From positions 184,501-248,500 of the forward strand of contig CP113928.1 of assembly GCA_029392055.1 (NCBI GenBank): a stretch of DNA of 64,000 bases, read 5' to 3'. This DNA comes from Leuconostocaceae bacterium ESL0723 (GTDB lineage: Bacteria; Bacillota; Bacilli; Lactobacillales; Lactobacillaceae). The stretch's first letter is position 1. Every line of letters starts with the position of its first letter. Below the pieces are notes generated by a model. That model was not told the DNA's origin, did not search any database, and saw only the letters and a program-made list of their open reading frames with translations. Of the stretch, positions 15,127-49,244 are shown piece by piece. Both the position numbers and the translations under genes were made by a program.

Positions 15127-15135
15127 GAGTTAATG

Positions 15136-21324: not shown

Positions 21325-21957
21325 TTACGCGAAGAAGTCTTTATTTTGGTGATCAACGTACTGTTTAATCGTATTACTATACCAGAACGGTACCACGACC
21401 TTACCGGTGATATGGCTGCGGCTGACATAGCCGAAGTAGCGGCCGTCGTTAGAGACCGAGCGGTGGTCACCCATGACAAAGTATTCGCCGGCGGGCACCT
21501 TGCTGGTGTTTTGGTCCTGGGTCTTCCAACCGCCAGTCGAGGCTGACAGGGTTTTCAGTGACCAGGTGGAACCAAAGGTCATCTCGGTCCCGGCGTTTTG
21601 CTCATCACTACTGATAAAGTCCTGGTTAATCTTTTTACCGTTAACGTAAATGTTACCGTCGCTGTAAGAAACGGTGTCACCGGGCACGCCAATCACACGC
21701 TTGACGTAATCCTTATTGCCCGGTTTAATCCGCGGGTCTTCGCCACGGGCATCGAAGACGACCACGTCACCGCGCTGGATTTTGGCCAGGTGGTTAACCC
21801 CGACCATCTGCTTGTCTAACAAATTCGGCTCCATCGAGGTCCCATTAATTGTGACAATTCCAAACACGAAGTTTAAGAATAGCCACATCGCTGCCAGGAT
21901 GAAGGCCATCCAGGCAAAGGTCGGCCCCCACTCGCGGAGAAAACTCTTTTTTTCCAT
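21325..21957 (-). CDS. lepB: signal peptidase I
   Basis: A 210-residue membrane-bound serine protease that removes signal peptides of exported proteins. One N-terminal helix (about residues 13-36) is followed by the catalytic serine in GTSMEP (Ser41) and the catalytic lysine in YVKRVIGVPGD (Lys86), then the conserved GDHRSVSNDGRYFG box near 168. Length is typical of Gram-positive SipS-type enzymes. A perfect -10 (TATAAT, complement of 21,989-21,994) lies about 32 bases before the ATG. The gene is convergent with the 40-codon gene and divergent from the PsiE-like gene. It could process the giant surface protein encoded nearby, but that is only by proximity. Confidence 0.96.
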   Translation of the reverse strand: MEKKSFLREWGPTFAWMAFILAAMWLFLNFVFGIVTINGTSMEPNLLDKQMVGVNHLAKIQRGDVVVFDARGEDPRIKPGNKDYVKRVIGVPGDTVSYSDGNIYVNGKKINQDFISSDEQNAGTEMTFGSTWSLKTLSASTGGWKTQDQNTSKVPAGEYFVMGDHRSVSNDGRYFGYVSRSHITGKVVVPFWYSNTIKQYVDHQNKDFFA

Positions 21958-22050: not shown

Positions 22051-22467
22051 ATGAAAAACAAAGTTTACGCCTTCATCTCGCGCTTTTATGACATGGCCAT
22101 CTCCTTCTTCATGTTGGTATTTGGTGTGATTGTCCTGGCCTTTTTTGCCCTCAATCTCTATGAGCTCTTCTTGGATCTCTTCACCTACCAGCAGCATGTG
22201 AAATTTAACAGCGTCACCGAAACGGTCCTGTCGGCCTTTTTGTGCTTTGAGTTTGCGGTCATTATCAAGGAGTACTTTGACCGCCACAGTCAGATTAGTT
22301 TCGAGAACTACCTTTACATCGCCATTACCGCCATTATCCGCTCAGTATTAGTCAACCATACCAATGCGATTAAGACCCTGCTGCTCTGTGTGGCAATTCT
22401 GGTACTGGTAGCGGGCATCATTGTCTATAAGCGCTTCTATGGCAAGCATGAGGGGATGCACAGTTAA
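22051..22467 (+). CDS. PsiE-like membrane protein
   Basis: A 138-residue protein resembling phosphate-starvation-inducible protein PsiE: four hydrophobic segments (about residues 16-37, 53-70, 83-95 and 107-124), the pattern VLSAFLCFEFAVIIKEYF in the second, and the family's RSVLVN motif near 93. The function of PsiE is not known, and its phosphate control is known only in enterobacteria. The ATG lies about 93 bases from the divergent lepB start. The call is a family match by pattern; no nearby phosphate gene supports it. Confidence 0.72.
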   Translation: MKNKVYAFISRFYDMAISFFMLVFGVIVLAFFALNLYELFLDLFTYQQHVKFNSVTETVLSAFLCFEFAVIIKEYFDRHSQISFENYLYIAITAIIRSVLVNHTNAIKTLLLCVAILVLVAGIIVYKRFYGKHEGMHS

Positions 22468-22875: not shown

Positions 22876-25800
22876 ATGAAAAATGAACATTTAATTAATG
22901 ATGATCTGCGCGTACATTTCAAAATGTATAAATCGGGGAAGTTCTGGCTGGTTTCCGGCCTAGGTATTTTGGGTGCCGGTATCGGCGCTGGTCAAAATGC
23001 CTCAGCGGATACCACTAGCACTGACCAGACGAACACCGAGCAGACTAGTAACCAGGCGGGCACGACCAATGCCCAGACTGTGAATTTGAACCAGGACCAG
23101 GCGGAGGCGCAAGCTTCGGCCTCTTCGTCGACTTCGGTTTCCCAGTCCACGTCTACCAGTACGCTTTCTTCTACTAGTGAATCCACCAAGGCTTCACAAA
23201 GTACTAGTCAAAGCACGATCGACCAGGACCAGAGCAAGCAGTCCAAGAGTGCTTCCGAGTCAAACAGTACTTCCGTCGCTGACAGTCAGGCAGGTAAGAG
23301 CGGTTCGACCCAAAGTGGTTCTGCACAAAGCACGGGCAACCAGAGCACGTCAACCCAGTCGACTTCACAAGGTACGACGGCTGACCAGACCCAGGACGAC
23401 AACGACGGTTTGTCCCTGCGGGATGGCGACGACACGACTAGCACTGGTTCGACGGATTCAACCAGTGACAGCAGTGCTGCGGCTCAGTCAACCTCAACCA
23501 GTCAGTCAATTGTTTCCAGCCAGAGCTTGGCTACCAGTCAGGCCGACTCTGAGCAGGCCGTTGTTAAGAGCCAGTTGAGCGAAAGTAAGTCAACCGCCGT
23601 TAGTCAGCGGACTTCAACTTCATTGAGTACTTCGACAGTGGTTTCTGAGAGTGTCGTTGCCTCAGCCTCTGACAGTCAGTCATCCACCGACCAAAGTCTT
23701 AGTACCAGCACTTCCGCCGTGCAGGCTTCTTTGAGTGCCTCAACTTCTGCTTCATTAAGCACGTCAACATCTGCTTCTACCTCTGCTTCAATCTCAGTCA
23801 GTCAAGCGGCAGTTACGGTTAATTCGGCCCTAGATCTCTCGGATAGCCGTGCTGCCTTTAACAGCACCACAATGAACCAGTCTCAGGCGGACAGCCTGAC
23901 GGCTTCAATGTCATCGTCGACCTCAGTGTCAGTTTCAACCGCTGATCAGGTGGCAAACATTGCCAAGTACAAGGCCCAGGCGCAGGCCAACGGCACATAC
24001 GCAGAAGTGTCTAACTGGAATGATTTCCAGACCGCTTATAACAATAACAACATTAGCTACATCGAATTGTCCCAGGACATTACTAACCCTGATACGGCTA
24101 GTTATAACGACCTGAACTGGCGTAATAATAGCCTGATTTTGGATGGTAATAACCACACCCTGAACCTGGGTATCAGTGCTTTGCGGACCGGGGTTACTAA
24201 CAACCCAACCACGGTTGTCAACGGTCAGTCTAGTGGTGGTTCAGTCCTGACGGTTAACAACACCAACCTGGTTCAGTGGGGAATCGGTGCCAACACCAAC
24301 AAGACCGATGCCGGTCAATTGGGGGAGCCCGATGCGGCCATTGATGCCTATAACACCCAGGGTAGTTACGGTGGTTGGACTTACAACCTGAACAATGTCA
24401 GCCTGAGTGGCCCAGCCGGTAACACCGCTGCGCAAAACCAGCAACCACACCGTCTGCTGGATAACGAAGGTGGCGTGGTCAATATGTCCGGTAACGTGAC
24501 GGCCAATACCCGTCAGGAAATGGTCCGGATTAGCCAGGTCAACGTGGCTAACGGTGCCAATATTACCTGGAATCAGACCAACGGTGCCGATTCTACTGGC
24601 GCACCAATGTTTAACTTCTCATACTTTGCCCCCGCTATTTCGGTTTCTAACCAGAGTTCAACTGGTTACGTGCACAGTATGACGGTTGGTGATGGTGCCA
24701 GCTTGACCGGAATGGCCCAGCCTGCCCAGGGATCATCTAACGTTTATGCCATGATCTATGGTACTTATGACACGGTCCTTTACGGTGATAATGTCAATAT
24801 CACCCAGAACAACCTCGGTCGTTTTATCAGTACCGATTTGGCTGGTAGCGATACCTATAACGGTAACAACCGTTATAACCGAAAGCTGATCTTTGGAAAG
24901 AACCTAACCGTTAAGGCTACCAATCTGGGTAGCACCGGTTCAATTATCCGCCTGCTGTCTGGATTCGCCGATGGTTCGCGGATTCAGTCTTCGGTCTACT
25001 TTGCCCCTGGCCTGAGTCTGGACTTACAAAGTCGTAACGTTCCTAGTGTCGACCAGCCGCTGGATTACGATGGTGGAAACACGATGACCATCGATTCACC
25101 ACGCTACCTGAACCTGTCCCTGAATGACACCAACGGTAACCCAATCAGCGGAACCCTGTTCTACTTAGGAAACGTTAACTTTAACATCAATAACGCCGAT
25201 TTGCGGATTTGGACTGGCCTAAGCAATAGTAGCAATACCCCTAACGGTAGTTCCCACTACGTGGCTAAGAATATTTCGTTTAACCGTAGTACGGTGACGA
25301 TTACCAACGTAAACAACAGTACTACCACGCTGAACACTGGTAACATTCGCCAGATTACTACCCAAAACACGGGGAATCGGACGATTAACATTAACTATGT
25401 TAACCAGGCCGGACAGGTTGTGGCTACGGTCCCAATGGATGTGAGCGATACCAGTAAGTACTACCCTGGTATGCAGATTCCAATTAACACGACTCAGTAT
25501 GCTCAAACCAACATGCCAGCCGGCTACCAGTGGGCGGTTGGTAACGAGATTTATTCTGGTGCCGCAAAGGATGCCCAGAGTAAGGGTAGTCCTGATACGA
25601 CTGCCGATAACGGTACCGCTGATGGTCAGCCAAACTACGCCATCGTACCTAATGAAGGCGTAACCTATACCTATAACATTTACGTTTACGGTAATCCAGA
25701 AACGGTGCAGTACCAGTATGTTGACCGGACAACCGGTAAGGTTTTGAACTCACCACTGTCTAACCAGACTGGTAATGAGTCGATGACCAACAAGGTTTCG

Positions 25801-28800
25801 GCCAACAAGGGAAACATCATTAACTGGAAGGACTCGTACTACACTAGTACCAACGTTCCAACTAACTATGTCTATGACACCAGTACCAATGCGGCCAACC
25901 CACAACCAACGACGACCACGGTCGGCGATAACAATCAGCTGGTCACTATTTATGTCGTGGGTAAGCAGATTAACGAAACCCCTAGGTACCAGTTAACTAA
26001 CGGTACTACGGTTGGCGTAACCGGTGGTGGTACTTTGACTGGTCGCTATGGCCAAACCCTCAGCAGTCTGCCCGTACCAACTTCTGGCACGAACGTCTTC
26101 AAGAGTGTGACGGTTAACGGCCAGCAGGTTGATCCAAGCCAGCCATATACTTTCTCAGCTACGCCAGATACGATTGTTTATACCTACCAGGCGGTTGCGG
26201 ACTGGAAGAAGGATGCGATTGCCGAGGCCCAGGCTACGGCAGCTCAGGTTAAGAGTGACATTAACAATGACCCTACCCTGACTACTACTGACCGGACTAA
26301 CGAGGCTAAGAACACTGACACTGCCTTAGCGGCTGCAATTAGCAAGATTAATTCGGTAACGAACAACGCCAGCTCGCAGAGCGTTCGTTCTCAAAACATT
26401 ACCAATATCCAGGCCACCCACACCGCCGGTGACAGCCTAGATATTCAAAAGTCACGGGCCAATGCCAAGTTGACCACGGTGGCTCAGACTACCAAGGACA
26501 ACATTAGTAACAATGATGCTCTGACTTCAGCTCAAAAGCAGGAACGGACCAACGAGGTTGATTCAGCGCTGGCTCAGGCTAAGGCAGCCGTCAATGCGGC
26601 GGCCGACGCTGACAGTGTTAACCAGACTGAGCAAACTCAGGAACCTAAGCTGCTAGGTTATAACCAGAGCGAAACGATTGATCAGCTCCGTCAGGAACAC
26701 ACTGACGCCTTAAACCAGGTGGCTACCGATACTAAGAACGCCATCGATAATGATGTCACGCTGACGGATGCCCAAAAGACCAGCCAAAAGGCCCAGGTTG
26801 ACCAGCAGACCAGCCAGTACATCAGCATGCTGCCAGACGATGCCGATGGCATGGATGCTGTGGTTAGTGCTGCCACACCAAAGATTAAGGCCCAGCACAC
26901 GTCTGGTCAGGATTTGGCGACCCAGCAGCAAAATGCCGTTAACCAAGTCAATGCTGAAGCTAGTCAGCAATCTCAGGCCATTGACAATGATAAAACCCTG
27001 ACGAACGCAGACAAGCAGACCCAAAAGCAGTCCCTCGAATCTACTCGCCAGACTGCCGTTAATACCATTAACTCGGCCCCTAATGCCCAGTCAGTCCTTG
27101 ATGACAAGACGAACGGGTTAAAGCAGGTCGATGCCGTCCACCAACCTGGTACCGATGTGGCCACTCAGCGTCAAAATGCTGAAAATGCCTTGAAACAAAA
27201 GGCTAGTGACACTGACAACCAGATTGATCAGGACGTTAACTTAACTAGTAAGCAGAAAACTGCGCAGAAGAACGCCGTGTCAAGCAGCCTCCAAAATGGC
27301 TTAACTAATCTTGACAAGGCCACTGATGCCCAGTCTATTTCGGATGCCCAAAAAGCAGCCACTGATGACGTGGCTAGCCAGTACAAGCAGGGTAAGACCC
27401 TTGCCCAGCAAAAGCAGGACGCCCTCAATGATTTGGCCAACACGGTTAGCCAAACCAAGTCCAAGATTAACGGGGATGCTACCCTTGATAATCAGGCTAA
27501 GAGCGACCAAAACGGTCAGGTAGACAGTGCCAACACGACTGCTACTCAGACAATCAATAACGCAACCGACGCTGACAGCTTGGACGAAGATGTTGCCAAT
27601 GCTAAGAGCCAGGTTGCTGCTAAGTACCAAACTGGTACGCCACTGACTACTCAGCAGCAAAATGCTAAGGACCAGTTGAGCCAAGAGGCGGCCAAGGTTA
27701 AGCAGGCAATTAACACTGATACCACCCTCTTGGATAGTGAAAAGCAGGCTCAATCAGCCAAGGTGGACACGGCTTTGCAGGCTGACCAGACCAAGGTTGA
27801 TCAGGCGACTGACGCCCAGGGTGTCGAAGATGCCCAAAAGAGTGGCATCACTGACTTGGATAACCAGCACACACCAGGCCAGGATTTGACGGCCCAAAAG
27901 CAGGCCAAGAATAGTGATTTGGACAGCCAGGCGGCTACGGTTACCAACCAGATTGACCAAGATGCTACTTTGACCAGTGATCAGAAGACTAGTCAGAAGC
28001 AGGCTGTAACTGATGCTTTGAACAACGCTAAGCAGACGGTTACCAATGCCAGCGATGCCCAGGGCGTGGCTGATGCCCACGACCAGGGTGTCAACAAGAT
28101 TAAGGCTGCCCACCAAACGCAGAATTCAGTTAGCCAGCAGCAAAATGACGCTAAGCAGGCCATTGCTGATAAGGCGCAGTCGACCAAGGCTGACATTGCC
28201 GCTGATAACACCCTGACTTCCGACCAGAAGCAGAGCCAGACCAGTGCCGTTGACCAAGCGGTTTCAACGGCCGATAGCAACATTGACAAGGCCACGAACG
28301 CCGATGATATCAACACGGCTAAGAGCAACGGTTTGAGCAGCATCGTGCACACGCCAGCTAGCTCGGTTAGTGACCAGCAAAGTGCTGCTAACCAGAACTT
28401 GAGCAACGAGGCCAACACGACCATCCAAAAGATTGACCAGGATGCTACCCTGACCGATGACAAAAAGACCCAGCAGAAGGCTAAGGTCAACAGTGATTTG
28501 TCAGCGGCCCAGGGCAAGGTTAACCAGGCCACCGATGCGGATGGTATCAACAGTGCCGAAGCTGCCGGTAAGTCAGCCATTGATGCTGATTACCAGGCCG
28601 GTGAGTCTTTGGACCAGCAAAAGCAGGACGCCCAAAAGGCCATTAATGATGCCGCCACTGCTGCCCAAAACCAGGTCAACCAGGAACCAACTTTGACCAG
28701 CGATCAGAAGACCGCCCAGGTTAAGAAGATTCAGGCCGACCAGCAGCAGGCTTTGACCAACGTTAACAACGCCCAAAACGCCCAGACGATTGCCAACCAA

Positions 28801-40800: not shown

Positions 40801-43800
40801 AACCAGCAAAAGCAGGCCATTGCGGCTGACATCACTTTGACTAATGCCGCCCAGGCGAGCCAGTCCGCTGCCGTGGATGCCGCGGCTAAGCAAGCCAGCG
40901 ACAAGATTGACAGTGACCAGAACGCCCAGGCCATCCAAGATGACCAGAATGCCGGTGTCAACAGCATTAATGGGGTTCACCAACCAGGTGCCACAGTTAG
41001 TGACCAGGGTAACCAGTCTAAGACCAACCTGCTATCAGCGGCTGATCGGATTAAAAACCAGATCAGTACGGATGCAACTCTGGACGATGCCCAGAAGCAG
41101 GCCCAGACCGACGCGGTTAACAACGCTTTGGCCCAGGCTACTGATTCAGTTAACAAGGCCTCAACTGCTCAGGGAGTGGCTGATGCTGAAAGTGCCGGTA
41201 CTCAGGCCATTAACAGCCAGCACCACGCCGGTGAAAAGTTAGAGGATGCCAAGACCGACGCCAAGGGTGAGATTGCTAACAAGTTGGCTGCTGTTAAGCA
41301 GGCCATTGCTAACGATGCAACCTTGGATAACGCCGCCCAGGCTAACCAGAGTGCCGCTGCCGATGCCGCTGCCCAGGCTGCTAACGACCAGATTGCTAAG
41401 GCAAGCGATGCCCAGGGCATTCTGGATGCTAAGCAGAGTGGCGAGCAAAGCATTGGTAACCAGCACCAGCCAGCTAAATCAATTAGCGACCAGCAAAATG
41501 ATGCCACGACCAGCATTGGTCAGACGGCCACTGCTGCCAAGGCAGCCATTGACGCCGATAATACTTTGACTGACGACCAAAAGACGGACCAGAAGCAGGG
41601 TGTTGATGCCGCTGTTCAACAGGCCAACAGCACGGTTAATGCCGCTTCGACTGCCCAAAGCATCGAAGATGCGGTTAAGCAGGCCGACACCAACGTTACT
41701 GGCGTTCACAAGCCAGGTAAGTCAATCAGCGACCAGCAGGCGACGGCCCAGGCAGCCATTAAGGATGCCGCTGCTCAGGCCAAGGCTAAGATTGATAACG
41801 ATGTTACCCTGGACAACGCTGCAAAGACCGCTCAAAAGAGCAGTGTTGATGCGGAAGCAGCCCAGGCTGACAGTCAGATTACTGCAGCAACTGACGCTCA
41901 ACACATTGCCGATGCCCAGAGTCAAGGTATTAACAAGGTCATCAGTGTGCAGAAGTCCGGTGACCCAGTTACTACCCAGCAGACGAAGGCTGCCGGCGAG
42001 GTTGACCAAGCTGCCACCCAGGCTAAGAACCAAATTGAAACTGACCCTACCCTAAACGATGCTGATAAGGCCACGCAGAGTAGTCAGGTTGACCAGGCAG
42101 TTGCTACGGCAAAGCAAAACATCCAAAATGCCCAGAATTCACAAGACATTGAAGATGCTAGCCGCGCCGGTCAGTCAGCTATCAACGCCGTACCAAAGTC
42201 TGGTGAAGCCGTTAGCGGTCAGCAAAGTGATCAAAATCAGGCCCTTGACAATGCTGCCAAGGATGCTAAGAACACGATTGCTAACGACCCTACTTTGAAC
42301 AATGCCCAAAAGCAGACGCAAAGTGATGCGGTTGACCAAGCAGTTAGCCAGGCTAAGGATGCCATCAATGCTGCCAAGAATGCTCAGAGTATTCAAGACG
42401 CGGCTACGAAGGGTGAAGATGCTATTAAGGGTGTTCACCAAGCCGGTCAGCCACTGACTCAGACCCAAACTGCTGCAAAGCAGACGGTTGATGATGCGGC
42501 TACTGCGGCTAACCAGGCCATCGATAACGATGCAACCCTGGATGACGCTGCTAAGGCCAGTCAGAAGCAAGCAGTTCAGACGGCGGCTAACCAGGCCAAG
42601 ACGGCCATTGATCAGACTCAAAACGCCCAGGCAGCTGAAGACGTTGCTAAGAACGGCGCTGACACGGTGGCTAGTGCTCACCAGCCAGGCCAGCCAGTTA
42701 CTGCTACCCAGGATGCCCAAAAGCAGGCCATCGATGCTGCTGCTACGCAGACCAAGACGGCCATTGACAACGATGACACCTTGGACACTGCCGCTAAGCA
42801 GTCACAAAAGGATGCAGTTGATAAGGCTGCTAGCCAGGCTAAGACCAATGTTGGAAGTGCAACAACTGCCCAGGCGGCTGAAGATGCAGCCAAGGCCGGT
42901 GTTGACCAAGTAGCTAAGGCCCATCAGGCTGGTCAGCCAGTTTCACAAACCCGGGATGCCCAGAAGCAGGCCGTTACGGCGGCAGCTAATGCGGCCAAGG
43001 ACACGATTGACAGTGATCCAACCCTGACGGATGCTGAAAAGACCAGCCAGAAGAACGCCGTTGACGCGGCTGCTACCAAGGCAGCCGACAATATCACGGC
43101 GGCTTCAAACGCCCAAGCAGCTGAGGATGCCGCTACCAATGGTCAAAGCGCTATCAAGGCGGTCCACCAGCCAGGTAAGCCAGTCACTGACACTCAGACC
43201 ACCCAAAAGGCGGCCGTTAGTGACCACGCTAACCAGGTTAAGAAGGACATTGATAACGATGCAACTTTGACTAATGACCAAAAGCAGTCCCAGAAGGCGG
43301 CGGTTGATGCAGCTGCCAAGGCTGCCCAAGACGCCGTTGACAATGCAACGACCGCCCAGGGTGCTGCCGATGCTGCGGCTGATGGTCAGAAGAAGATGGA
43401 TGCCCAGCACGTAGTTGGTACACCAATTAATGGCCAGCAATCAACTGCAAAGCAGGCCGTTACCAATGCGGTTACTGCTGCTAACCAGGCCATCGATACT
43501 GATCCAACCTTAACTAGTCAACAAAAGGCTGACCAAAAGGCTGCCGTTCAAAAGGCAGCTGATGCTGCTAACCAAGCCATTGCTCAGGCTACTGATGCCC
43601 AAAGCATTCAGGACCTGACCCAGCAAGGTCAGACTAATATCAGCAAGGCCCACCAGCCAGCCCAAAGCGTGGCCGACCAGCAGACGGCTGCAAAGCAGGC
43701 CATGCAAAATGCTGGCGACAAGGCTAAGCAGCAGATTGACAGCGATCCGACCCTGGATAACCAGGAAAAGGCCGCACAAAAGAATCAGGTTGATGCCGCT

Positions 43801-46800
43801 GTTAAGGCTGCTCAAACTGACCTTGGTCAAGCTGCTGATGCCCAGAGTATTGCGGATAAGCAAGCCCAGGCTGAGCAAAACATTAATAACCTACCTAAGT
43901 CCGGTAAGTCCCTGGCTGATCAGCGTACCGATGCTGATAATGCCATCGACCAGACGGCTAGCGCCGCTAAGCAGACGATTGCTACTGACCCAACTTTGAA
44001 TGACCAGGCTAAGTCTGATCAGCAGGCTGCGGTTGATAAGGCAGCTAATGACGCTAAGACGGCCGTTAGCCAGGCTAACAACGCCCAAGACATCGAAGAT
44101 GCTACTAGCCACGGTCAAGCCAACGTGAATGCCGTTCACAAGGGCGGTCAGTCTTTGACCGACCAGAAGGCGGCAGCAACCACGGCCCTGACCCAGGCGG
44201 CTAACGATGCCAAGGCGGCCATTGATGCCGATCCTACTTTGACCACGGCTGAAAAGAACAGCCAAAAGGCAACCGTTGACCAGGATAATCAGCAGGCTAG
44301 CGCCAAGGTTAGCCAGGCCAACGATGCCCAAGACATTCAAAATGAGCAGGCTGCTGGTACCCAGGCCATTAAGCAGGTCCATCAGGCCGGAAAGTCAGTT
44401 ACTGATCGGCAAAGTGCCGCCAGTGACAGCTTGAATAACCTGGCCAAGCAGGCTGAGGATGCCATTAGCACCGACAAGACGCTGACGGATGCCCAAAAGG
44501 CAACCCAAACGCAGGCAGTTAAGGATGCTTTGGCTAAGGCCCAGGATGCCGTGAACAAGGCTGCTGATGCCCAAGGTATTCAGGATGCTGAGACTAGCGG
44601 TGCACAGGCCATCAATGGTTCTCACCAAGCCGGTGAAAAGCTAGAAGACGCTAAGACGGATGCCAAGGACGCGGTTGACACCAAGGCCAACCAGATTAAG
44701 GCTTCAATCGATGCCGACCCTAGCTTGAATCAGGCTGCTAAGACCGCTCAGAAGAATGCGGTTGATGCAGCGGCTAGCCAGGCCAAAGATAAGATTGATA
44801 CGGCCACCGATGCCCAAGCTATTCAGACGGCCCGTGATAACGGCACGACTGACATGGGTAATCAACATGTTGCCGGCACGCCGGTTAAGGATCAGCAAAC
44901 TCAGGCAGCCACTAAGCTGACTAATTCAGCTGACCAGGCTAAGGCGGCCATCGATGCTGACCCTACTTTGACGGACGCCCAAAAGACGGCCCAGAAGCAG
45001 GCAGTTGATGACGCAGCCAAGGCGGCTAGCGACAACTTGGCTAAGGCCCAGGATGCCGAGGCCATCGAACAGGCCGTTGCCAATGGTCAAAAGGCCATTA
45101 CGGATAGTCACCAGCCAGGTCAGAGCGTTGACCAGGCTAAGACTAACCAGGAAAATGCCCTCGATGATTTGGCAAAGCAGGCTAAGGCCGCTATCGACGG
45201 TGATAACACTTTGACCGATGCCCAAAAGAAGGCTCAGGATGCCCAGGTTGACGAGGCGGTTGCCAAGGCAAAGCAGTCAATTGGCGATGCTAAGAATGCC
45301 CAAGACATTCAAACTGCCGTTGATCAGGCTAAGTCAGACATTAGCAAGGTTCACCAGCCCGGTCAGCCAGTCGATCAGCAGAAGCAGTCAGCTACTAATG
45401 CGGTTACTGATGCTGCTAATAAGGCCAAGGCTGCTATCGCCGCTGATCCAACGCTAAGCGCCGACCAGAAGAAGGCCCAGACGGCTGCCGTTGACCAAGC
45501 TGCTGCGGATGCCCAAAAGCAGATTGAAAATGCTAAGGACGCCCAGGCTGCTACCGATGCGGTCAACGAAGCCCTGAACAAGATTAACGGTGCCCACCAG
45601 GCCGGCCCATCACTGGCTGACCAGAAGAAGGCCGCCGAGGATGCCGTTGATCAAGCAGCCGACAAGGCTAAGGCGGCAATTGATGCCGACCCAACTTTGA
45701 CGGACGCGCAGAAGCAGGCTCAGAAGGCAGCTATTGACAAGGCTGCACAGGCCGCTAAGGACAAAATCAATGCTGCTACTGATGCCGATGGTATTAACCA
45801 AGGCCAGAGTGGTGCTGACAATGCCTTCCAGCAGGCTCACCAGCCAGGCCAGTCAGTTGACAACCAGGTTAAGGCCCAGCAGGCTAACTTGGATGCGGTT
45901 GTGGCTCAGACGGAGGCAGCCATTAAGGCTGATAACACCTTGAGTCAGGCTGACAAGGATGCCCAGACTAAGCAGGTAGCCACTTTGGCAAAGCAGTACG
46001 GTGACCAAATTAGCAGTGCTAAGGATGCCCAAACTGCCCAAAGTGCTTACCAAACCGGTGCCAAGGCCATCCAGGATGCCCACCAGCCGGGTCAGCCAAT
46101 TACGGAACAGACCCAGCAGGCCAAGGCTAACCTGAATGCTGTGGCTACCCGGGTCAAGAACCAGATTGCCGGTGACCAGACGTTGACCGATGCGCAAAAG
46201 GCAGCCCAGTCTCAGGCGGTTGATGAAGTAACTGCTTCAGCTAACCAGGCCCTGAGCCAGGCCCAAAACGCCGATGATGCTCAGTCAATTGTGACGAAGT
46301 CGACGGCTGACATTGAATCTCAGTACCAGCCAGGTCAACCAGTCACAAACCAAGTTCAGACTGCTAAGTCTCAGCTCAACAGCGTTGCTAATGACACTGA
46401 TCAGGCCATCGATAACGATGACACCCTTAGTGATGCCGACAAGGCAAAGCAGAAGCAAGCTGTACAGCAAGCTTTGACTACTGGTAACCAAAACATTGAC
46501 CAGGCAACGACCGCCCAAGCAGCTAGTGCCGCCTACCAGGCTGGTGCCACTGCCATTAAGGCAGCCCACGTCCAAGGTCAACCAGTTACCCAGCAGCAAA
46601 GCGTGGCCAAGGCTAACCTGACCGACGTTGCCAGCCAGACCACGGCTAAGATTAAGGCCGACCAGACTTTGACGGATGCTCAAAAGCAGACCCAGAGTCA
46701 AAACGTTGCCACTGCCTTGCAAAAGGCTACCGCGGCAATTGACCAAGCTCAGACGGCGCAAGCCGCAACCACTGCTGCCCAGAACGGTACTCAAGACATT

Positions 46801-49008
46801 CAGTCCCAGTACCAGCCAGGCAAGCCAGTGACCGAGCAGGCCACTCAGGCCAAGGCCACCCTTAATGATCTGGCCAAGCAGGTTGAAGCCGCCATCGCTA
46901 CTGATCCAACTTTGAACGATTCACAAAAGGCTAGTCAGAAGCAGGCGGTTGAGGATGCCCTCACTCAGGCTAACCAGAACATTGGCCAGGCTACGACCGG
47001 TCAGGCAACCCAAGCTGCCGTTGATGCCGGTACCAAGGCCATTAATGCCGCCCACCAGCCTGGTCAGCCAGTCAGCGATCAAAAGCAGACTAGCCAGAAC
47101 CAGATTCAGGCGGCGGCCGACAAGGCCAAGGCTGCCATTGAAGCCGACCCAACCTTGGATGCTGCCGCTAAGGCCGCTCAGGAACAGGCCGTCGACAAGG
47201 CTGCTCAGGCTGCCAGCGATGCGGTTAACCAGGCTAAGAACGCCCAGGACGCTCAGCAAGCTGCTAACGATGGTATTAGCAAGATTAACAATACCCATCA
47301 GGCTGGTCAGCCATTGACTAACCAGAAGCAGACTGCCAGTGACCAACTGGACGCTGCCGCTAAGGCCGCTAAGGATAAGATTGCCAATGACCCAACCCTG
47401 ACCGATGCGCAAAAGCAGGCTCAGGAGAAGGCCGTTGACGACGCCGTTGCGGCTGCTAAGCAGGCCCTTAATCAGGCTGACACCGCCCAGAAGGCTCAGG
47501 ATGCGGTTAATAATGGTTTGTCCAAGATTAACGGTGCTTACCAAGCCGGTCAGACGATTGATGCCCAAAAGCAGACTGCTAGTCAGGCCATTACTGATGC
47601 AGCCCAAGCTGCCAAGGATAAGATTGATAGTGATCCAACCTTGAGTGCTGCTGAAAAGCAGTCGCAGAAGAATGCGGTTGATGCCGCTGCTAAGCAAGCT
47701 CAGGATGCCTTGAACCAGGCTAAGACCGCTGACGCCGCCAATGCCGCGGTTGCCCAGGCCCAGAAGGCCTTCGCTGCTGCCCATCAGGCCGGCCAGCCAG
47801 TCACGAGCCAGCAAAAGCAGGCTAATGACCAGATTCAGCAGGCCGCTGACAAGGCCAAGGCGGCCATCGACGCCGATCCAACTTTGACGGATGCCCAAAA
47901 GGCCGCCCAGAAGCAAAAGATTGACGCCATCGCTGCCGACGCCGAAAACAAGGTCAAGAACGCAACTTCTGCCGTTGACATTAACCAGGCAGTTAGCGAT
48001 GCTAGTCAGCAGTTTGCTCAGGCCCACCAGCCTGGACAGACGGTTGATAACCAAAAGCAGTCCGCTGGCGCCGTGGTTGACGAAACCGTTAAGCAGGTTA
48101 AGGCCGCAATCGATGCCGATCCAACGCTGACTAACCAGCAAAAGGCCGACCAGAAGGCGGCCGTTGATCAGGCTGCAGCTGCAGCGGCAACTAAGATTAA
48201 GGCTGCTACTGATGCCAACACGGTTGACCAGCTGCAAAAGCAAGCGGTTACCGATTTGATGAAGCTGCACACGCCAGGTGAGTCGATGGACTCGGCTAAG
48301 AGCCAGGCTCAAACTGATGTGCAAAACACTGCTAACCAAACTAAGGCTGCCATTGACGCCGACCCAACTTTGACCAACGCGCAAAAGGCTGAGCAGAAGG
48401 CAGCCGTAGATGCGGCTACCCAAACGGCCCTGAAGCAGATTGCTCAAAGTCAAAACGTTGACGCCCTCAAGCAGACCAACGCGCAGACGGCAGTGATTAA
48501 GCAGTCTCACCAACCTGGTGTCAGTCTTGACCAACAGCGTCAGGCCACTCGCGCAGCCATCCAGGCTGCCGGACAGTCGGCTAAGACCAACGTAGCGAAT
48601 AACCCTCAGTTATCCGCTGCCCAGAAGGCCGACCGCCAGGCCCACATTGATGCTGTGGTTGCCGACGCCTTGCTGAAGGTTACCAACGCCGAATCGGCAG
48701 AGGAACTGGCTCAAATCAACCGGGATGCCCAGGCCGCAATCCTGGACGCCCAAAACGTTGACCCAGCCAGCGCAAATATTCCTGATAAGCAGAAGCCAAC
48801 TGCTAACCAGCCACGCCCTAACCAGACCGTAGTACCAGCAGCACCACGTGCAAGCTACAGCTACCCAACGGTTACGAGTGCGCTGCCAAATACGGGTCGC
48901 CAGGCTGAAAGTATCAATACCCTTGGTATCATTAGCTTGACGCTGGCAAGCTTAGGCATGCTCCTAGGTGCTAGTTACAAGTCCCGTAAGCGTGACGATG
49001 AAGCCTAA
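22876..49008 (+). CDS. giant LPxTG-anchored surface adhesin with about 93 DUF1542 repeats (8,710 residues)
   Basis: One uninterrupted frame of 8,710 codons. The ATG at 22,876 follows AGAGGG and gives a KxYKxGKxW signal (KMYKSGKFW, residues 16-24) ending ASA|D near residue 44; a TTG at 22,801 is not a likely start. Then come a Ser/Thr-rich stalk (about 45-370), a pectate-lyase-like, beta-helix adhesive domain (about 378-825), MucBP-like segments (about 835-1,030), and from residue 1,110 to about 8,630 tandem 81-residue DUF1542 repeats, mostly three-helix-like with the core xIDxDxTLTxxxKxxQ. A short Pro/Asn-rich wall segment leads to LPNTG (8,670-8,674), a membrane helix and KSRKRDDEA. It resembles Ebh-type rods of staphylococci in architecture and should extend far from the cell wall to bind surfaces or host matrix; the ligand is unknown. 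It is monocistronic with its own terminator. Confidence 0.95.
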   Translation: MKNEHLINDDLRVHFKMYKSGKFWLVSGLGILGAGIGAGQNASADTTSTDQTNTEQTSNQAGTTNAQTVNLNQDQAEAQASASSSTSVSQSTSTSTLSSTSESTKASQSTSQSTIDQDQSKQSKSASESNSTSVADSQAGKSGSTQSGSAQSTGNQSTSTQSTSQGTTADQTQDDNDGLSLRDGDDTTSTGSTDSTSDSSAAAQSTSTSQSIVSSQSLATSQADSEQAVVKSQLSESKSTAVSQRTSTSLSTSTVVSESVVASASDSQSSTDQSLSTSTSAVQASLSASTSASLSTSTSASTSASISVSQAAVTVNSALDLSDSRAAFNSTTMNQSQADSLTASMSSSTSVSVSTADQVANIAKYKAQAQANGTYAEVSNWNDFQTAYNNNNISYIELSQDITNPDTASYNDLNWRNNSLILDGNNHTLNLGISALRTGVTNNPTTVVNGQSSGGSVLTVNNTNLVQWGIGANTNKTDAGQLGEPDAAIDAYNTQGSYGGWTYNLNNVSLSGPAGNTAAQNQQPHRLLDNEGGVVNMSGNVTANTRQEMVRISQVNVANGANITWNQTNGADSTGAPMFNFSYFAPAISVSNQSSTGYVHSMTVGDGASLTGMAQPAQGSSNVYAMIYGTYDTVLYGDNVNITQNNLGRFISTDLAGSDTYNGNNRYNRKLIFGKNLTVKATNLGSTGSIIRLLSGFADGSRIQSSVYFAPGLSLDLQSRNVPSVDQPLDYDGGNTMTIDSPRYLNLSLNDTNGNPISGTLFYLGNVNFNINNADLRIWTGLSNSSNTPNGSSHYVAKNISFNRSTVTITNVNNSTTTLNTGNIRQITTQNTGNRTININYVNQAGQVVATVPMDVSDTSKYYPGMQIPINTTQYAQTNMPAGYQWAVGNEIYSGAAKDAQSKGSPDTTADNGTADGQPNYAIVPNEGVTYTYNIYVYGNPETVQYQYVDRTTGKVLNSPLSNQTGNESMTNKVSANKGNIINWKDSYYTSTNVPTNYVYDTSTNAANPQPTTTTVGDNNQLVTIYVVGKQINETPRYQLTNGTTVGVTGGGTLTGRYGQTLSSLPVPTSGTNVFKSVTVNGQQVDPSQPYTFSATPDTIVYTYQAVADWKKDAIAEAQATAAQVKSDINNDPTLTTTDRTNEAKNTDTALAAAISKINSVTNNASSQSVRSQNITNIQATHTAGDSLDIQKSRANAKLTTVAQTTKDNISNNDALTSAQKQERTNEVDSALAQAKAAVNAAADADSVNQTEQTQEPKLLGYNQSETIDQLRQEHTDALNQVATDTKNAIDNDVTLTDAQKTSQKAQVDQQTSQYISMLPDDADGMDAVVSAATPKIKAQHTSGQDLATQQQNAVNQVNAEASQQSQAIDNDKTLTNADKQTQKQSLESTRQTAVNTINSAPNAQSVLDDKTNGLKQVDAVHQPGTDVATQRQNAENALKQKASDTDNQIDQDVNLTSKQKTAQKNAVSSSLQNGLTNLDKATDAQSISDAQKAATDDVASQYKQGKTLAQQKQDALNDLANTVSQTKSKINGDATLDNQAKSDQNGQVDSANTTATQTINNATDADSLDEDVANAKSQVAAKYQTGTPLTTQQQNAKDQLSQEAAKVKQAINTDTTLLDSEKQAQSAKVDTALQADQTKVDQATDAQGVEDAQKSGITDLDNQHTPGQDLTAQKQAKNSDLDSQAATVTNQIDQDATLTSDQKTSQKQAVTDALNNAKQTVTNASDAQGVADAHDQGVNKIKAAHQTQNSVSQQQNDAKQAIADKAQSTKADIAADNTLTSDQKQSQTSAVDQAVSTADSNIDKATNADDINTAKSNGLSSIVHTPASSVSDQQSAANQNLSNEANTTIQKIDQDATLTDDKKTQQKAKVNSDLSAAQGKVNQATDADGINSAEAAGKSAIDADYQAGESLDQQKQDAQKAINDAATAAQNQVNQEPTLTSDQKTAQVKKIQADQQQALTNVNNAQNAQTIANQKTAGVNTLNSDGQDKGDTIADQQTAAKNKLAQSASDAKNSIAQDPTLTQALKDQLSKNVDQATSDADSKISAATTADDINTAEQAGAGNIAGQTNQISSLASQLTDSKNALGKAAEDTKSAIDNDATLTSDQKTSQKTKVDNALQTAQNQLDAATDANGLTTATNTGTQNIKNQHQSKDLASDKADAQQAINDEATKVKAAIDSDKTLTDAAKTSQKANVDQTAQSVQTDIQNAQTADAVEQVQNDGITKVDQQHVPADLNQQVTDAKAAVNAAAQATNTQISQDATLDSAAKQAQQTAANQAASDAITQIGNATDAQGVEDAKNAGVSKVNSQYKTGTPVADQISAAKDQVNSAATAAKQTIDNDVTLDQNQKNDQKAAVDKAANDGLTNLGQQSNADGVESAQKQAVNTINGVHQNGEAVSDRKTAANNAIDAAVQQANDTIDSKTTLDNAEKADQKAQVKTAADQAKAAVNAVADAQGVENAQAAGVNSVSQVPQDGESLANRRTDAKSAVASQAQSTKNQINNDQALTTDQKTAQSNAVDAQVNQADTAIDNAQDAQAIEDARDAGKQNVASQYQQGNLTQEKQNASAALDQTASQTNQAIDSDDTLTDAQKTAAKNQVATDLSAAKAQVQSAQSADDVVSAQNSGTNKIKADHQQGDLNKQRQDAESDLAQKASDTKTAIANDPTLDDAAKTSQSNQVDQQLAAANQAVNAAGNADAIVSAHDTGVSNITKQHQANSQSVADQQTAAKNALTDKATAAKTAIDNDPTWTTAEKTSQKSKVDSAANTQIQAISQVSASDPKAAQTIEDAQKQGNTDIEAVENQHGTSVADRQSAANQNIDNEATKVKNDISNDATLTNAEKTKQSSDVDTAAATAKANINKATDAQSISDAQDQGISDVDAKHVKGSQSVDQQKSNATDALQAESTKVKNAINTDVTLTNDEKTAQSKAVDDAVSQATTNINSATDAQGITDSQNTGISKIDASHVSGKSIDQQKNDANSAVNNTANDTNTSINNDSTLDQNSKNDQTAAVNKAKSDAEKAISNAQAAQEIEDAKNSAQESIPKLHVPGKDITEQRSNGKATVQAEADKINANIDASQNLDSTTKAAQKAKVNNIVSASDSQLDGDTTADDVNKDVRAALGAIDLVGQQTSQKDALTAEANTQKADIDNDATLNDADKTTQKQGVDSALTQANNNIDNATDSGSVTSAASAGKTAIDAVHQPGKPVTDTQTAQKSNVDAAATAAKAAIDSDKTLTDAQKTDQKVAVDKAASDAKTNIDNATTAQAAQDAATQAEKTINAAHQPGQSVSDTQTAQKSAVDDAATAAKADIDNDKTLTDAQKADQRAAVDKAANDAKTAVGNATDAQSAQDAAQSGISKIKDAHQAGQSVSQTQTDQQNAVDQAATAAKADIDNDKTLTDAQKADQKAAVDKAASDAKTAVGNATDAQSAQDAAQSGISKIKDTHQAGQSVAQTQTQQKSAIDDAATTAKNKIDTDPTLDDAAKTAQKAAVDDAANKAKTAVDQATTAQAAQDAANQGTTNINDAYKPGQSLDSQKATQSKALDDAATAAKAAIDNDKTLTDAEKTAQKADVDQATNAAKTTVNNATTAQAAEDAVTDGTKQINAAHQQGQPVSDTQTKQKSAIDDAATTAENKIDSDSNLTDAQKAAQKAQVAKAASDAKTAVDNATDAQAAQDAANNGEKTIGGIYQPGQPIGNTQTQQKSAIDDAATTAKNKIAADNTLTDAQKTAQEAAVDQAANNAKTAVDQAKTAQQVQTATDDGINAINNAYQPGQPVTDTQTKQKSAVDDAATAEKNKIAGDNTLTDAEKSAQEAAVDKAANDAKTAIGQATTAQAVQAATDAGTQNIKNAYQPGQPIGDTQTKQKSAIDDAATAEKNKIAADNTLTDAQKTAQEAAVDQAAANAKEAVDQATTAQAAQDATTNGTKAISDSYQAGPSINDTQTKQKSAIDDAATTAKNKIAADNTLTDAQKTAQEAAVDQAAQAAKDKVSQATTAQAAQDAANNGTNAINNAYQPGQSVSQNQAAQKATLNQQASDEKTAIDNDTTLTDAQKTAQKAAVDQANSDAQTAVDNAQNAQDIENAVNTGNQKIKDAHQPGQSLDNQKTSQTQAIDDAATAAKTAIANDVTLDAAAKASQTAQVDKAANDAKTNVNNAANAQAAQDATNAGKTAVGQVHQPGKSVADTQADQSNKIDQAAAAAKTAIANDGTLDDATKAEQTAAVDKAASDAKTAINNTTNAQAAEDAATKGASAVANAHQQGQPVSQTQTDQKNQLDQAATAAKTAIDNDTTLTDAQKSAQKTAVDQDVAKAKANVDSATTAQAAKDAASQGTATINKDHQPGQSVTQTQTDQKNQIDQAATAAKATIANDATLDDATKASQEQAVDDAANKAKTAVDQASDAQGAQDAAQSGINTINGVHQPGKPVTSQKTDIQGQLQQAAETIKQDIDNDTTLTDAEKTAQKAAVDQDAAKATQNINQATTVQAAKDAESQGEAAMKADHKPGTSVDTQKGQANSALDNAGNNASSAVDSDPTLTDDEKSKQQAAIASAKQAAEQAIAAAKAAQDIENAKNKGTSDINNAHVPGKDIPTQQQNAEKAVQAAVDAANQAIDSDPTLTNAEKADQKNAVTGKQQAANESIQNSSNAQDILTNQNSSLNLINNTHTNGTSVADRQQAAKAQITQAVSQAKDAIDQDKTLSDAEKATEKANVDQAATQANDNITAATTAQGVLDAQQAGQTNINNQHQAGQDLNDRQTAAKQALQTAADQTDAAIDSDATLDNATKAAQKQAVAAKLQQANDAVANATTAQDILNQQSDGQKTIGDQHQPNSKSVADQQNDAKTALANAAQQTKDAIDADKTLTDADKQTQKSQVDSNLQTAEQNVVAANNAQAVEDAQTHGQSAITGAHQQGQDLADQQTTAKNAITTEANKTKSAIDNDTTLTDAQKTAQKANVDSAAAAAQSAIAAAPNAQAIKQAQTDGANNVDNEHQPQASLDQQRTAAKQTIADQANQTKAKIDADNTLTDADKASQKQAVDQAAQAADTKIDAAQDAQNIADATQAGQSSVTGSHQAGQTVDNQKQTATAAVNQAAAAAKATINGDDTLTDADKASQSQAVDQAASQANQNINQAGNAQAIADAQKQGETAVNGVHQPGKPVSGQKDTAKANLNQEVTKVKNAIDTDTTLTDAQKASQKQAVDDQAAKASTNIDNATTAQGATDAYNQGVTAIDQQHQPGQAVTTQKGQANQDIDNTGNTVSNAVKNDNTLTDQQKADQQAAIAKAKAAAAEAIAKAQAAQAIEDAKNQGTSDINKAHVPGATVDDQRANAKQNIQKAVDEANAAIDNDATLTDAQKADQKNQVTGDQQAANDALDKSTDAQSILNSQTDGLNLINQRHQSGDPVATQQDAAKSDLATAATAAKSAIDNDATLTDADKQSQKNQVDAAVQSGDTTIAATNNAQAASDAKDKAVSAVNAVHQPGQKVADRQAAAQSTLAAKANDVKNAIDNDATLTDAQKAAQKQAVDTTTQQEQNKLASAATAQSIDDTLAQAQTDVTNQHQAGPSLTDQQNTAKTALAKAVSDTKAAIDADATLTDDQKASQKQAVDQAAQAATDKINNSTQAQSLIDTNQQSIAGVKAVHQAQQPISDQQNAAKALVAQQANQTKAAIDADATLTDAQKTDQKAAVDQAANQLNGQIDAANTAQQIKDYTDQAGAQLNKNHQNGESVANRQTDAKSALDQTATSTKTAIDNDATLTDAEKTSQKQAVDQATAAAETAVSQAQTAQDIENATQQGQGKITASHQNGTAVTDRQNNAQAAAKAEADAQKKAIDADVTLNIADRTTQKAAIDQALQQADANISQAKTAQDVENAQAQAVKDLDAVHKNGEPVSQHQADAKQQVTQAVTAAKQKIEADPTLTTAQKQDQESQVDAAAEQANSKIEQTTDAQSAQDAGKSGAASVANVPQPGQNLPAQKAAAKAQLTAAVNQQKQAIAADITLTNAAQASQSAAVDAAAKQASDKIDSDQNAQAIQDDQNAGVNSINGVHQPGATVSDQGNQSKTNLLSAADRIKNQISTDATLDDAQKQAQTDAVNNALAQATDSVNKASTAQGVADAESAGTQAINSQHHAGEKLEDAKTDAKGEIANKLAAVKQAIANDATLDNAAQANQSAAADAAAQAANDQIAKASDAQGILDAKQSGEQSIGNQHQPAKSISDQQNDATTSIGQTATAAKAAIDADNTLTDDQKTDQKQGVDAAVQQANSTVNAASTAQSIEDAVKQADTNVTGVHKPGKSISDQQATAQAAIKDAAAQAKAKIDNDVTLDNAAKTAQKSSVDAEAAQADSQITAATDAQHIADAQSQGINKVISVQKSGDPVTTQQTKAAGEVDQAATQAKNQIETDPTLNDADKATQSSQVDQAVATAKQNIQNAQNSQDIEDASRAGQSAINAVPKSGEAVSGQQSDQNQALDNAAKDAKNTIANDPTLNNAQKQTQSDAVDQAVSQAKDAINAAKNAQSIQDAATKGEDAIKGVHQAGQPLTQTQTAAKQTVDDAATAANQAIDNDATLDDAAKASQKQAVQTAANQAKTAIDQTQNAQAAEDVAKNGADTVASAHQPGQPVTATQDAQKQAIDAAATQTKTAIDNDDTLDTAAKQSQKDAVDKAASQAKTNVGSATTAQAAEDAAKAGVDQVAKAHQAGQPVSQTRDAQKQAVTAAANAAKDTIDSDPTLTDAEKTSQKNAVDAAATKAADNITAASNAQAAEDAATNGQSAIKAVHQPGKPVTDTQTTQKAAVSDHANQVKKDIDNDATLTNDQKQSQKAAVDAAAKAAQDAVDNATTAQGAADAAADGQKKMDAQHVVGTPINGQQSTAKQAVTNAVTAANQAIDTDPTLTSQQKADQKAAVQKAADAANQAIAQATDAQSIQDLTQQGQTNISKAHQPAQSVADQQTAAKQAMQNAGDKAKQQIDSDPTLDNQEKAAQKNQVDAAVKAAQTDLGQAADAQSIADKQAQAEQNINNLPKSGKSLADQRTDADNAIDQTASAAKQTIATDPTLNDQAKSDQQAAVDKAANDAKTAVSQANNAQDIEDATSHGQANVNAVHKGGQSLTDQKAAATTALTQAANDAKAAIDADPTLTTAEKNSQKATVDQDNQQASAKVSQANDAQDIQNEQAAGTQAIKQVHQAGKSVTDRQSAASDSLNNLAKQAEDAISTDKTLTDAQKATQTQAVKDALAKAQDAVNKAADAQGIQDAETSGAQAINGSHQAGEKLEDAKTDAKDAVDTKANQIKASIDADPSLNQAAKTAQKNAVDAAASQAKDKIDTATDAQAIQTARDNGTTDMGNQHVAGTPVKDQQTQAATKLTNSADQAKAAIDADPTLTDAQKTAQKQAVDDAAKAASDNLAKAQDAEAIEQAVANGQKAITDSHQPGQSVDQAKTNQENALDDLAKQAKAAIDGDNTLTDAQKKAQDAQVDEAVAKAKQSIGDAKNAQDIQTAVDQAKSDISKVHQPGQPVDQQKQSATNAVTDAANKAKAAIAADPTLSADQKKAQTAAVDQAAADAQKQIENAKDAQAATDAVNEALNKINGAHQAGPSLADQKKAAEDAVDQAADKAKAAIDADPTLTDAQKQAQKAAIDKAAQAAKDKINAATDADGINQGQSGADNAFQQAHQPGQSVDNQVKAQQANLDAVVAQTEAAIKADNTLSQADKDAQTKQVATLAKQYGDQISSAKDAQTAQSAYQTGAKAIQDAHQPGQPITEQTQQAKANLNAVATRVKNQIAGDQTLTDAQKAAQSQAVDEVTASANQALSQAQNADDAQSIVTKSTADIESQYQPGQPVTNQVQTAKSQLNSVANDTDQAIDNDDTLSDADKAKQKQAVQQALTTGNQNIDQATTAQAASAAYQAGATAIKAAHVQGQPVTQQQSVAKANLTDVASQTTAKIKADQTLTDAQKQTQSQNVATALQKATAAIDQAQTAQAATTAAQNGTQDIQSQYQPGKPVTEQATQAKATLNDLAKQVEAAIATDPTLNDSQKASQKQAVEDALTQANQNIGQATTGQATQAAVDAGTKAINAAHQPGQPVSDQKQTSQNQIQAAADKAKAAIEADPTLDAAAKAAQEQAVDKAAQAASDAVNQAKNAQDAQQAANDGISKINNTHQAGQPLTNQKQTASDQLDAAAKAAKDKIANDPTLTDAQKQAQEKAVDDAVAAAKQALNQADTAQKAQDAVNNGLSKINGAYQAGQTIDAQKQTASQAITDAAQAAKDKIDSDPTLSAAEKQSQKNAVDAAAKQAQDALNQAKTADAANAAVAQAQKAFAAAHQAGQPVTSQQKQANDQIQQAADKAKAAIDADPTLTDAQKAAQKQKIDAIAADAENKVKNATSAVDINQAVSDASQQFAQAHQPGQTVDNQKQSAGAVVDETVKQVKAAIDADPTLTNQQKADQKAAVDQAAAAAATKIKAATDANTVDQLQKQAVTDLMKLHTPGESMDSAKSQAQTDVQNTANQTKAAIDADPTLTNAQKAEQKAAVDAATQTALKQIAQSQNVDALKQTNAQTAVIKQSHQPGVSLDQQRQATRAAIQAAGQSAKTNVANNPQLSAAQKADRQAHIDAVVADALLKVTNAESAEELAQINRDAQAAILDAQNVDPASANIPDKQKPTANQPRPNQTVVPAAPRASYSYPTVTSALPNTGRQAESINTLGIISLTLASLGMLLGASYKSRKRDDEA
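23008..23985 (+). repeat. Ser/Thr-rich low-complexity region of the giant adhesin
   Basis: About 325 codons dominated by Ser, Thr, Gln and Ala in short SxS/STS runs (e.g. SQSTSTSTLSST), with a small acidic island (DDNDGLSLRDGDD). It resembles the stalks of serine-rich repeat adhesins, which are commonly O-glycosylated. No glycosyltransferase lies in this window. Confidence 0.8.
26203..48770 (+). repeat. tandem array of about 93 repeats, 243 bp each (81-residue DUF1542 units)
   Basis: The DxDxTLT-type motif recurs from near 26,263 to near 48,592; that distance divided by 243 gives about 92 steps. Equivalent points in distant units are separated by whole or near-whole multiples of 243 bp (for example 486, 2,190 and 3,402 bp). 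A typical unit starts HQPGQSV..Q and contains IDNDxTLTDAQK, AVDxAA and NATxAQ. A few units are irregular, such as one with an SASDPKAAQ insertion near 31,200 and aberrant early units near 26,640-26,860. Confidence 0.95.
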
Positions 49009-49032
49009 TCGCTGAATCTGATTGCTAAGAAG

Positions 49033-49070
49033 AGACCCCCACGGAAGTGACTTCCGCGGGGGTCTTTTTT
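49033..49070 (+). terminator. strong terminator of the giant adhesin gene
   Basis: A 15-base stem (AGACCCCCACGGAAG / CTTCCGCGGGGGTCT, one A-C mismatch), loop TGA, then a T run. It ends the giant message 25 bases after its stop codon. Confidence 0.93.
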
Positions 49071-49208
49071 GTGTGCTCTTAGTAAAAATTTCTGGTGCTC
49101 CCTGATTTCAAAACCTAGTCTCGGTGCGGGTGCTGTAGCTTAGAAAGGTACATCCCCAGTATTTGTCCCTGGCTAAAATCGCGGTTCCTTTTTAGCTTAG
49201 CCAAACCT

Positions 49209-49214
49209 TATAAT
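49209..49214 (+). promoter_or_regulatory. -10 element of the PAP2 gene
   Basis: A perfect TATAAT, 30 bases before the start codon; the only -35 candidate is a weak TTCCTT at 49,185-49,190. Confidence 0.5.
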
Positions 49215-49244
49215 GGAGGCATAAAAAGAAAGGAAGATTTGCCG

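Follow-up and report, generated by a model that had tools for sequence, protein, structure and literature searches.

A single gene occupies 41% (26,133 of 64,000 bases) of the window analysed here, that is, of the whole stretch of 64,000 nucleotides taken from the genome of Leuconostocaceae bacterium ESL0723, a share already given in a preliminary description of this DNA. Such a gene raises the question of how the encoded surface protein is built, how it could be exported and attached to the cell and, above all, how the specificity of its putative binding domain might evolve while the remainder is maintained. The intact frame of 8,710 residues reported in the preliminary description is confirmed: it opens with ATG at 22876, ends with TAA at 49008 and includes 8,710 codons without an internal stop. 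The features concerned, in window coordinates, are:

21325..21957, - strand: signal peptidase I gene (TIGR02227, 143.9 bits)
22876..49008, + strand: giant adhesin gene, 8,710 aa, 898 kDa, free of Cys
22921..22947, + strand: KxYKxGKxW signal motif, residues 16-24 (PF19258, TIGR03715)
23026..23985, + strand: Ser-rich linker, residues 51-370, 320 residues, 30% Ser (composition)
23437..28380, + strand: putatively exchanged cassette, about residues 188-1835 (saturated dS against the congener G001)
23986..25335, + strand: predicted beta-solenoid head of SRRP binding-region type, about residues 371-820 (PF20585, AlphaFold2, Foldseek, VIA-align)
25369..26175, + strand: MucBP-like beta domains, probably two, about residues 832-1100 (model secondary structure, Foldseek)
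26182..48750, + strand: rod of 93 DUF1542-type repeats, residues 1103-8625, usual period 81 (PF07564, own-repeat model)
46120..46605, + strand: 162 residues (7749-7910, two repeat lengths) missing in the congener G001 (alignment)
48883..48897, + strand: LPNTG sorting motif, residues 8670-8674 (direct reading; PF00746 18.1 bits, cut-off 20)
49049..49064, + strand: terminator-like hairpin with a T run (hairpin scan)

From N- to C-terminus the protein is composed of a KxYKxGKxW signal, a Ser-rich linker, a solenoid head, MucBP-like domains, a DUF1542-type rod, a short linker and LPNTG. The signal, KMYKSGKFW, scores above the cut-offs of both PF19258 (43.4 bits; cut-off 23.6) and TIGR03715 (32.4 bits; cut-off 18). 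LPNTG is followed by a hydrophobic stretch and a charged tail, KSRKRDDEA; the anchor model PF00746 falls slightly under its cut-off, and none of the NCBIfam models matched the C-terminal 202 residues. The signal and the sorting motif read from the letters in the preliminary description therefore both stand, as does its terminator, identified here by a weak scan (two such sites in 48600-49400, where shuffles average 0.9). A promoter scan 5′ of the gene yielded seven promoter-like sites (2.5 in shuffles) with no clear favourite, and an Rfam scan returned two tRNAs only. An antisense open reading frame of 1,188 aa (window 32179-35745) lies within the rod and is probably a mirror of codon bias (AT skew about +0.3).

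We propose that the KxYKxGKxW signal would direct the protein to the ordinary SecA/SecY translocon and that sortase would attach its C-terminus to the wall. The 93 three-helix repeats would build up an acidic stalk some 0.3-0.4 micrometre long, presenting an SRRP-type beta-solenoid that may bind a glycan or similar ligand. Specificity would change by a recombinational swap of the head cassette, the stalk being left intact, with one crossover in the conserved signal/Ser-rich start and the other within the repeat array. This explanation as a whole, a sortase-anchored fibrillar adhesin whose specificity evolves by recombinational replacement of a head cassette, is in our judgement probable. It builds on the computed sequence anatomy, the predicted folds, the lack of SecA2 or SecY2 over cut-off and a mosaic against one congener.

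The preliminary description had envisaged an adhesive fibre presenting its head well beyond the cell surface. The predicted long fibre with an adhesin-type head is upheld, and its reach and its adhesion would follow from that architecture. It is possible, and in our view somewhat short of an even chance, that the fibre functions mainly in cell-cell aggregation and biofilm rather than in attachment to host or plant: SasC, which also has a DUF1542 stalk, is described in the available part of PMC2761602 as aggregating by means of its N-terminal domain and not of the DUF1542 repeats. The present data are compatible with aggregation and surface attachment alike, and both can hold.

SRRPs carry a signal of the KxYKxGKxW type, which is associated with these proteins and with accessory Sec. 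In this genome, the sole full-length SecA scores 1006 bits on the housekeeping model TIGR00963 (cut-off 800) and 897 on SecA2 (cut-off 930), and for the sole SecY the TIGR00967 model gives 420 bits (cut-off 254) and the SecY2 model 164 (cut-off 250). Of the accessory Sec system, which also comprises Asp1-3 and Gtf genes, the test covered SecA2 and SecY2 and found neither protein above its NCBIfam cut-off in this assembly (96.43% complete by the tool's figure). A second SecA copy can be detected in this way, since a SecA query found a second SecA-like protein in a relative, G188. Accessory Sec export is unsupported, only housekeeping-type SecA and SecY having been found, and because SecA2 and SecY2 were not found, the adhesin is probably exported by ordinary SecA/SecY. 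The locus combines a KxYKxGKxW signal with an SRRP-type head in a small genome where SecA2 and SecY2 were not found, and the passage of a 0.9-MDa protein through an ordinary translocon becomes a question that can be tested there. Genome-wide there are one sortase match, seven places with the signal motif and three signal peptidase I genes. That one of the latter lies near the giant gene invites only a guess that it acts with the adhesin. The second SecA-like protein of G188 (L093, contig 17) is 42% identical and is perhaps SecA2; the same genome has a pair of head matches, each interrupted by a single in-frame stop.

The main evidence on how the protein evolves comes from G001, a congeneric draft assembly in 5 contigs, where the syntenic gene is likewise intact and encodes 8,155 aa, 86 repeats included. 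It reveals a mosaic, the most informative feature of the gene, which is invisible in a single sequence such as the preliminary description was based on. The two proteins share 96% amino acid identity in the signal and 94% in residues 51-190. Identity is 46% in the Ser-rich end (residues 190-370; dS 2.6), 41% in the head (residues 371-880; dS 3.0), 56% in the MucBP-like part (residues 880-1180; dS 2.1) and 44% in the first repeats (residues 1181-1600; dS 2.0, on 219 of 420 codons aligned). From residue 1600 on, the rod is 90% identical (dS 0.47, dN 0.053, dN/dS 0.11), and so is the tail; nine nearby genes show 87-100% identity and dS 0.12-0.58. The preliminary description had concluded from the large investment in the gene that selection must be strong. 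Gene size is indirect evidence of this, and the dN/dS of the rod provides a more direct indication.

In windows of 150 codons, dS within the cassette ranges from 1.4 up to unbounded, and in the rod from codon 1801 on it is uneven too, at 0.10-1.13 (above 0.7 in 6 of 46 windows). The steps in divergence are sharp: one is near codon 187, where the conservation of the Ser-rich linker stops, and the other is between about 1824 and 1840, an edge which sits in repeats, so that the position of alignment gaps there is not unique. The segment between them holds the end of the Ser-rich linker, the head, the MucBP-like domains and the first nine repeats, against about four repeats in G001 (a difference of 243 + 160 residues). 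Beyond it, the rods align as a single gapless block of 5,925 codons (1824-7748). Unit by unit, 70 of the 72 repeats with an ungapped counterpart in G001 are nearer to it than to any of the units compared within the same protein, so that for the most part each position of the rod has evolved on its own. The other two, at 3361 and 3847, fall in the most uniform stretch of the rod and may reflect conversion. This mosaic supports an origin by recombination, in which the head was replaced and the stalk conserved, as far as a comparison of sequences can tell.

Foreign base composition of the cassette was considered and rejected. GC at fourfold sites is 0.43-0.53 in the ESL0723 cassette against 0.49 in its rod (each p>0.1). 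In G001 a difference in plain GC3 mostly vanished at fourfold sites, the sole difference left there concerning a Ser-rich stretch of 178 codons, at 0.35 against 0.49 (p 0.0045, one of ten comparisons). Base composition thus does not single out either lineage as the one that changed its head. In both species, rod and head have fourfold-site GC of about 0.47-0.52, against 0.63-0.79 in three of four downstream genes.

Could the head simply be fast? An account without exchange would hold that it is an old allele in both species, diverging rapidly under diversifying selection driven by ligand, host or phage. In a tree of 18 heads (G397 and G240 left out) the ESL0723 and G001 heads are indeed sisters (86/83), 1.31 changes per site apart, against 1.62-1.75 to G007, G312 and G188 and 0.25 within the pair G007-G069. 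This last pair, from the genus of Convivina praedatoris, also has heads that outpace SecA (amino acid identity of SecA/head 99.2%/80%; nucleotide identity 94% for SecA and 76% for the head), so part of the head divergence may be ordinary speed. The corresponding amino acid figures are 100%/47% for ESL0723-G001, 91%/52% for G188-G312 and 86%/37% for G188-G002, both within a genus, and 81-85%/33-45% between genera. ESL0723 and G001 are the closest pair by SecA (nucleotide identity 97.8%, against 93.8% for G007-G069), yet on these SecA/head comparisons their heads appear almost as unlike as heads of different genera. Selection on amino acids alone does not raise dS, which is at least 1.4 in the cassette against an average of 0.47 in the rod and still no more than 0.58 in nearby genes. 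Moreover, dS steps within tens of codons at both edges, and the two cassettes are about five repeats apart in length. Divergence without exchange is therefore unlikely.

For replacement of the cassette, the simplest reading is that the head of one lineage may derive from a deep-branching member of this clade outside the sample. The search for a donor found none: across 397 sampled family genomes the congener itself has the closest head (47%), the sister position of the two heads in the tree gives no sign of a gain from a sampled genus, and the six plasmid records with head relatives (from Enterococcus and Levilactobacillus) reach at most 37.4% identity. A silent second cassette was also considered and rejected, the head query matching once only in this genome. 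No more than two species of the genus came to light, so the case for exchange is built on a single pair.

A second strongly diverged segment lies close by, upstream of the giant gene: a defence-like island (window 11980-21063) with HsdR, HsdM, HsdS, an ApeA-like protein (below cut-off) and AbiH. Identity to the congener is 71% for HsdR, 72% for HsdM, 29% for HsdS and 41% for the AbiH-like protein. Between the island and the giant gene, signal peptidase I and PsiE (window 21325-22467) encode proteins 100% identical to those of the congener, so the two are separate diverged segments. The island of the congener also holds a 607-codon open reading frame without a listed match here.

A broader reading is that giant DUF1542 stalks are conserved recombination platforms, whose linker and repeats would provide homology arms for circulating SRRP-type heads. 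We put this forward tentatively and would not yet bet on it. If it were true, a cell could switch its adhesion target in one exchange with the long stalk unchanged. Heads of this type are found in 26 of the 397 sampled family genomes, that of ESL0723 counted and some matches being weak. Thirty head loci were collected from named genomes by two short peptide patterns, a sample rather than a census. The stalk following the head, judged with a repeat model from the ESL0723 protein on loci clipped at 10 kb or at contig ends, is of DUF1542 type in 7, Ser-rich in 14, of another kind in 2 and short or cut in 7; the same head module thus occurs on stalks of two types. It is combined with DUF1542 in Fructobacillus tropaeoli, F. 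ficulneus, F. pseudoficulneus, Lactobacillus bombicola, an uncultured Lactobacillus, ESL0958 and the congener, and with a Ser-rich stalk in Enterococcus, Convivina praedatoris, Leuconostoc inhae, Liquorilactobacillus aquaticus and others.

Among the relatives, contig 20 of G002 (L024-L026) includes adjoining giant open reading frames of 7,868 and 4,012 codons, and another contig (L027) a third of 3,041 codons, all with the same repeat type. In G069 (Convivina genus), contig 4 (L029-L030) encodes a DUF1542 protein of 4,507 codons whose N-terminal region is unlike the solenoid head by eye; the solenoid head match of this genome is on a separate contig.

The preliminary description had called the head pectate-lyase-like and suggested structure prediction, which is in agreement. 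PF20585 matches residues 376-511 with 44.9 bits (cut-off 24.3) when residues 1-1175 are scanned, and is unlisted when the longer piece of residues 1-1575 is scanned with Pfam. Since the match depends on how the piece is cut, the evidence from the fold weighs more. The AlphaFold2 model of residues 371-1125, from an alignment of the window with 28 related heads (L065 and L067, with short matches, left out), shows a beta-solenoid followed by further beta domains (mean pLDDT 82.9, pTM 0.73; pLDDT below 70 at 121 of 755 residues). In Foldseek the top match is YwfG (7yl4, a Lactococcus-type surface protein; E 8e-8, low TM-score), and 5nxk, the binding region of an L. reuteri SRRP, comes second (E 5e-5; TM 0.61, target-based). 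Weak MucBP matches besides YwfG correspond to the MucBP-like part, and the Pfam scan of residues 1-1575 gave no MucBP match. VIA-align places 5ny0 first (Z 27.7, rmsd 3.1, 307 aligned) and 5nxk second (Z 24.9), the next fold after the SRRPs having Z 20.0. As modelled, the head is closest in fold to the beta-solenoid binding regions of L. reuteri SRRPs. A beta-helix could also signify a polysaccharide-degrading enzyme carried on a stalk rather than a passive adhesin: PF20585 is named pectate-lyase-like, and the polysaccharide lyase RbmB (Z 19.7) and polygalacturonase 1bhe (Z 19.0) are among the structural matches. With both SRRP adhesins ranking ahead of these in the model comparison, we regard an enzyme as quite improbable.

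The rod was described beforehand as made of DUF1542 repeats, and a search of the whole genome with PF07564 bears this out: there are 84 matches at E<=1e-3, all in the giant frame, and 70 are at or above the curated cut-off (2 of them only together with neighbours). Among 14 control genomes, one has a match and none exceeds the cut-off. A model built from the protein's own repeats identifies 93 units, with a spacing of exactly 81 residues in 66 of 92 intervals. The rod contains 22.5% Ala and 5.8% Ser and has a calculated pI of 4.6. Exact repeats within the gene reach 65 nt at most, and every 80-mer is unique. Between units (the 80 of 93 that are exactly 81 codons long), nucleotide identity averages 0.51, with a median of 0.61 to the best partner and no pair above 0.88; by this measure, the units are old and differ from one another. 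Given the short exact repeats and the low identity between units, collapse during assembly is unlikely and the repeat number is credible; the genome is assembled as one contig of 1,434,568 bp. That the mosaic or the repeat number arose from collapsed or chimeric repeats, as the draft state of G001 and the NODE-type contig name on the record matched to it might suggest, is very improbable in view of the lack of a repeated 80-mer, the gapless alignment of the rods and the single head match per genome, which leaves no second head gene in sight to confuse the assemblies.

AlphaFold2 predicts three helices per 81 residues for four repeats (mean pLDDT 97.3, pTM 0.79), the input alignment consisting of 44 stretches from within the window. 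A Foldseek search of the PDB with this model gave nothing significant (best E 0.11, the BibA helical domain). The best VIA-align score, Z 8.8, is a possible common helical arrangement on the tool's scale; an Ebh-like S. aureus domain (4kjm) has Z 7.7 and EbhA (2dgj) Z 7.3. Sequence searches of solved structures gave nothing significant either (best E 0.13 for the rod and 0.22 for the head). We estimate the fibre at roughly 0.3-0.4 micrometre from 93 repeats of up to about 3.9 nm, as implied by the figure for Giant3, for which the available part of PMC12863079 gives 0.2 micrometre in all and 51 repeats, these being longer (103 residues).

Proteins of this kind are already known, as both the DUF1542-repeat adhesin and the Giant papers describe them, and a literature search reaching few subscription journals did not find this protein or its pairing with the G001 copy. 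The preliminary description chose Ebh as its comparator. Ebh and Embp of staphylococci are indeed in the same size class and are cell-wall-associated repeat proteins, but according to the available part of PMC7846122 they are built for the most part from FIVAR domains and have four and seven DUF1542 domains, and the comparison was rejected. Here FIVAR has no match in residues 1-1575 and 8209-8710 (all Pfam), the rod between having been scanned with PF07564 only. The proper comparators are AsaA, SasC, Epf and MabA, the adhesins with DUF1542 stalks in that part of PMC7846122. Like them (PMC2761602 for SasC), the ESL0723 protein has a secretion signal, a distinct non-repeat head, a DUF1542 stalk and a C-terminal LPXTG-type anchor; it belongs to the DUF1542-repeat adhesins and resembles AsaA, SasC, Epf and the Giant proteins of fructophilic lactobacilli in its layout. 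It differs in having 93 repeats rather than the 17-31 quoted for these four, a KxYKxGKxW signal rather than the YSIRK of AsaA and SasC, and an SRRP-type solenoid instead of FIVAR, Siglec-like or CBM-like heads. A protein with 29 DUF1542 domains is mentioned for L. kunkeei in the available part of PMC4511666.

With the L. reuteri SRRPs (SRRP53608, SRRP100-23) the protein shares the predicted fold of the binding region. It differs from them in its stalk, which is of DUF1542 type and not made of Ser-rich repeats, the Ser-rich part being the 320-residue linker only, and in belonging to a genome without SecA2 or SecY2 over cut-off. Giant1-3 of Apilactobacillus kunkeei, as presented in the available part of PMC12863079, differ in their imperfect repeats of 62-366 residues, against a mostly strict period of 81 here, and in their DUF5776/SH3b-like C-terminal domains without a transmembrane part, in place of LPNTG; a Pfam scan of residues 8209-8710 (E<=1) detected no such domains, only DUF1542 and the sub-threshold anchor match. 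The terms "DUF1542" and "Convivina" are absent from the main text of that paper. The Giants nevertheless resemble the present protein, as modelled, in that an SRRP-like beta-solenoid at the N-terminus sits on a long rod of alpha-helical repeats. For Giant1-3 and their Fructobacillus homologues, head exchange and intragenic recombination have been proposed (PMC12863079), as has domain replacement by transfer for the binding domains of DUF1542-repeat adhesins (PMC7846122). The present locus would be a clear case of such exchange, with both edges placed to tens of codons and a rod that has stayed in register over 5,925 codons.
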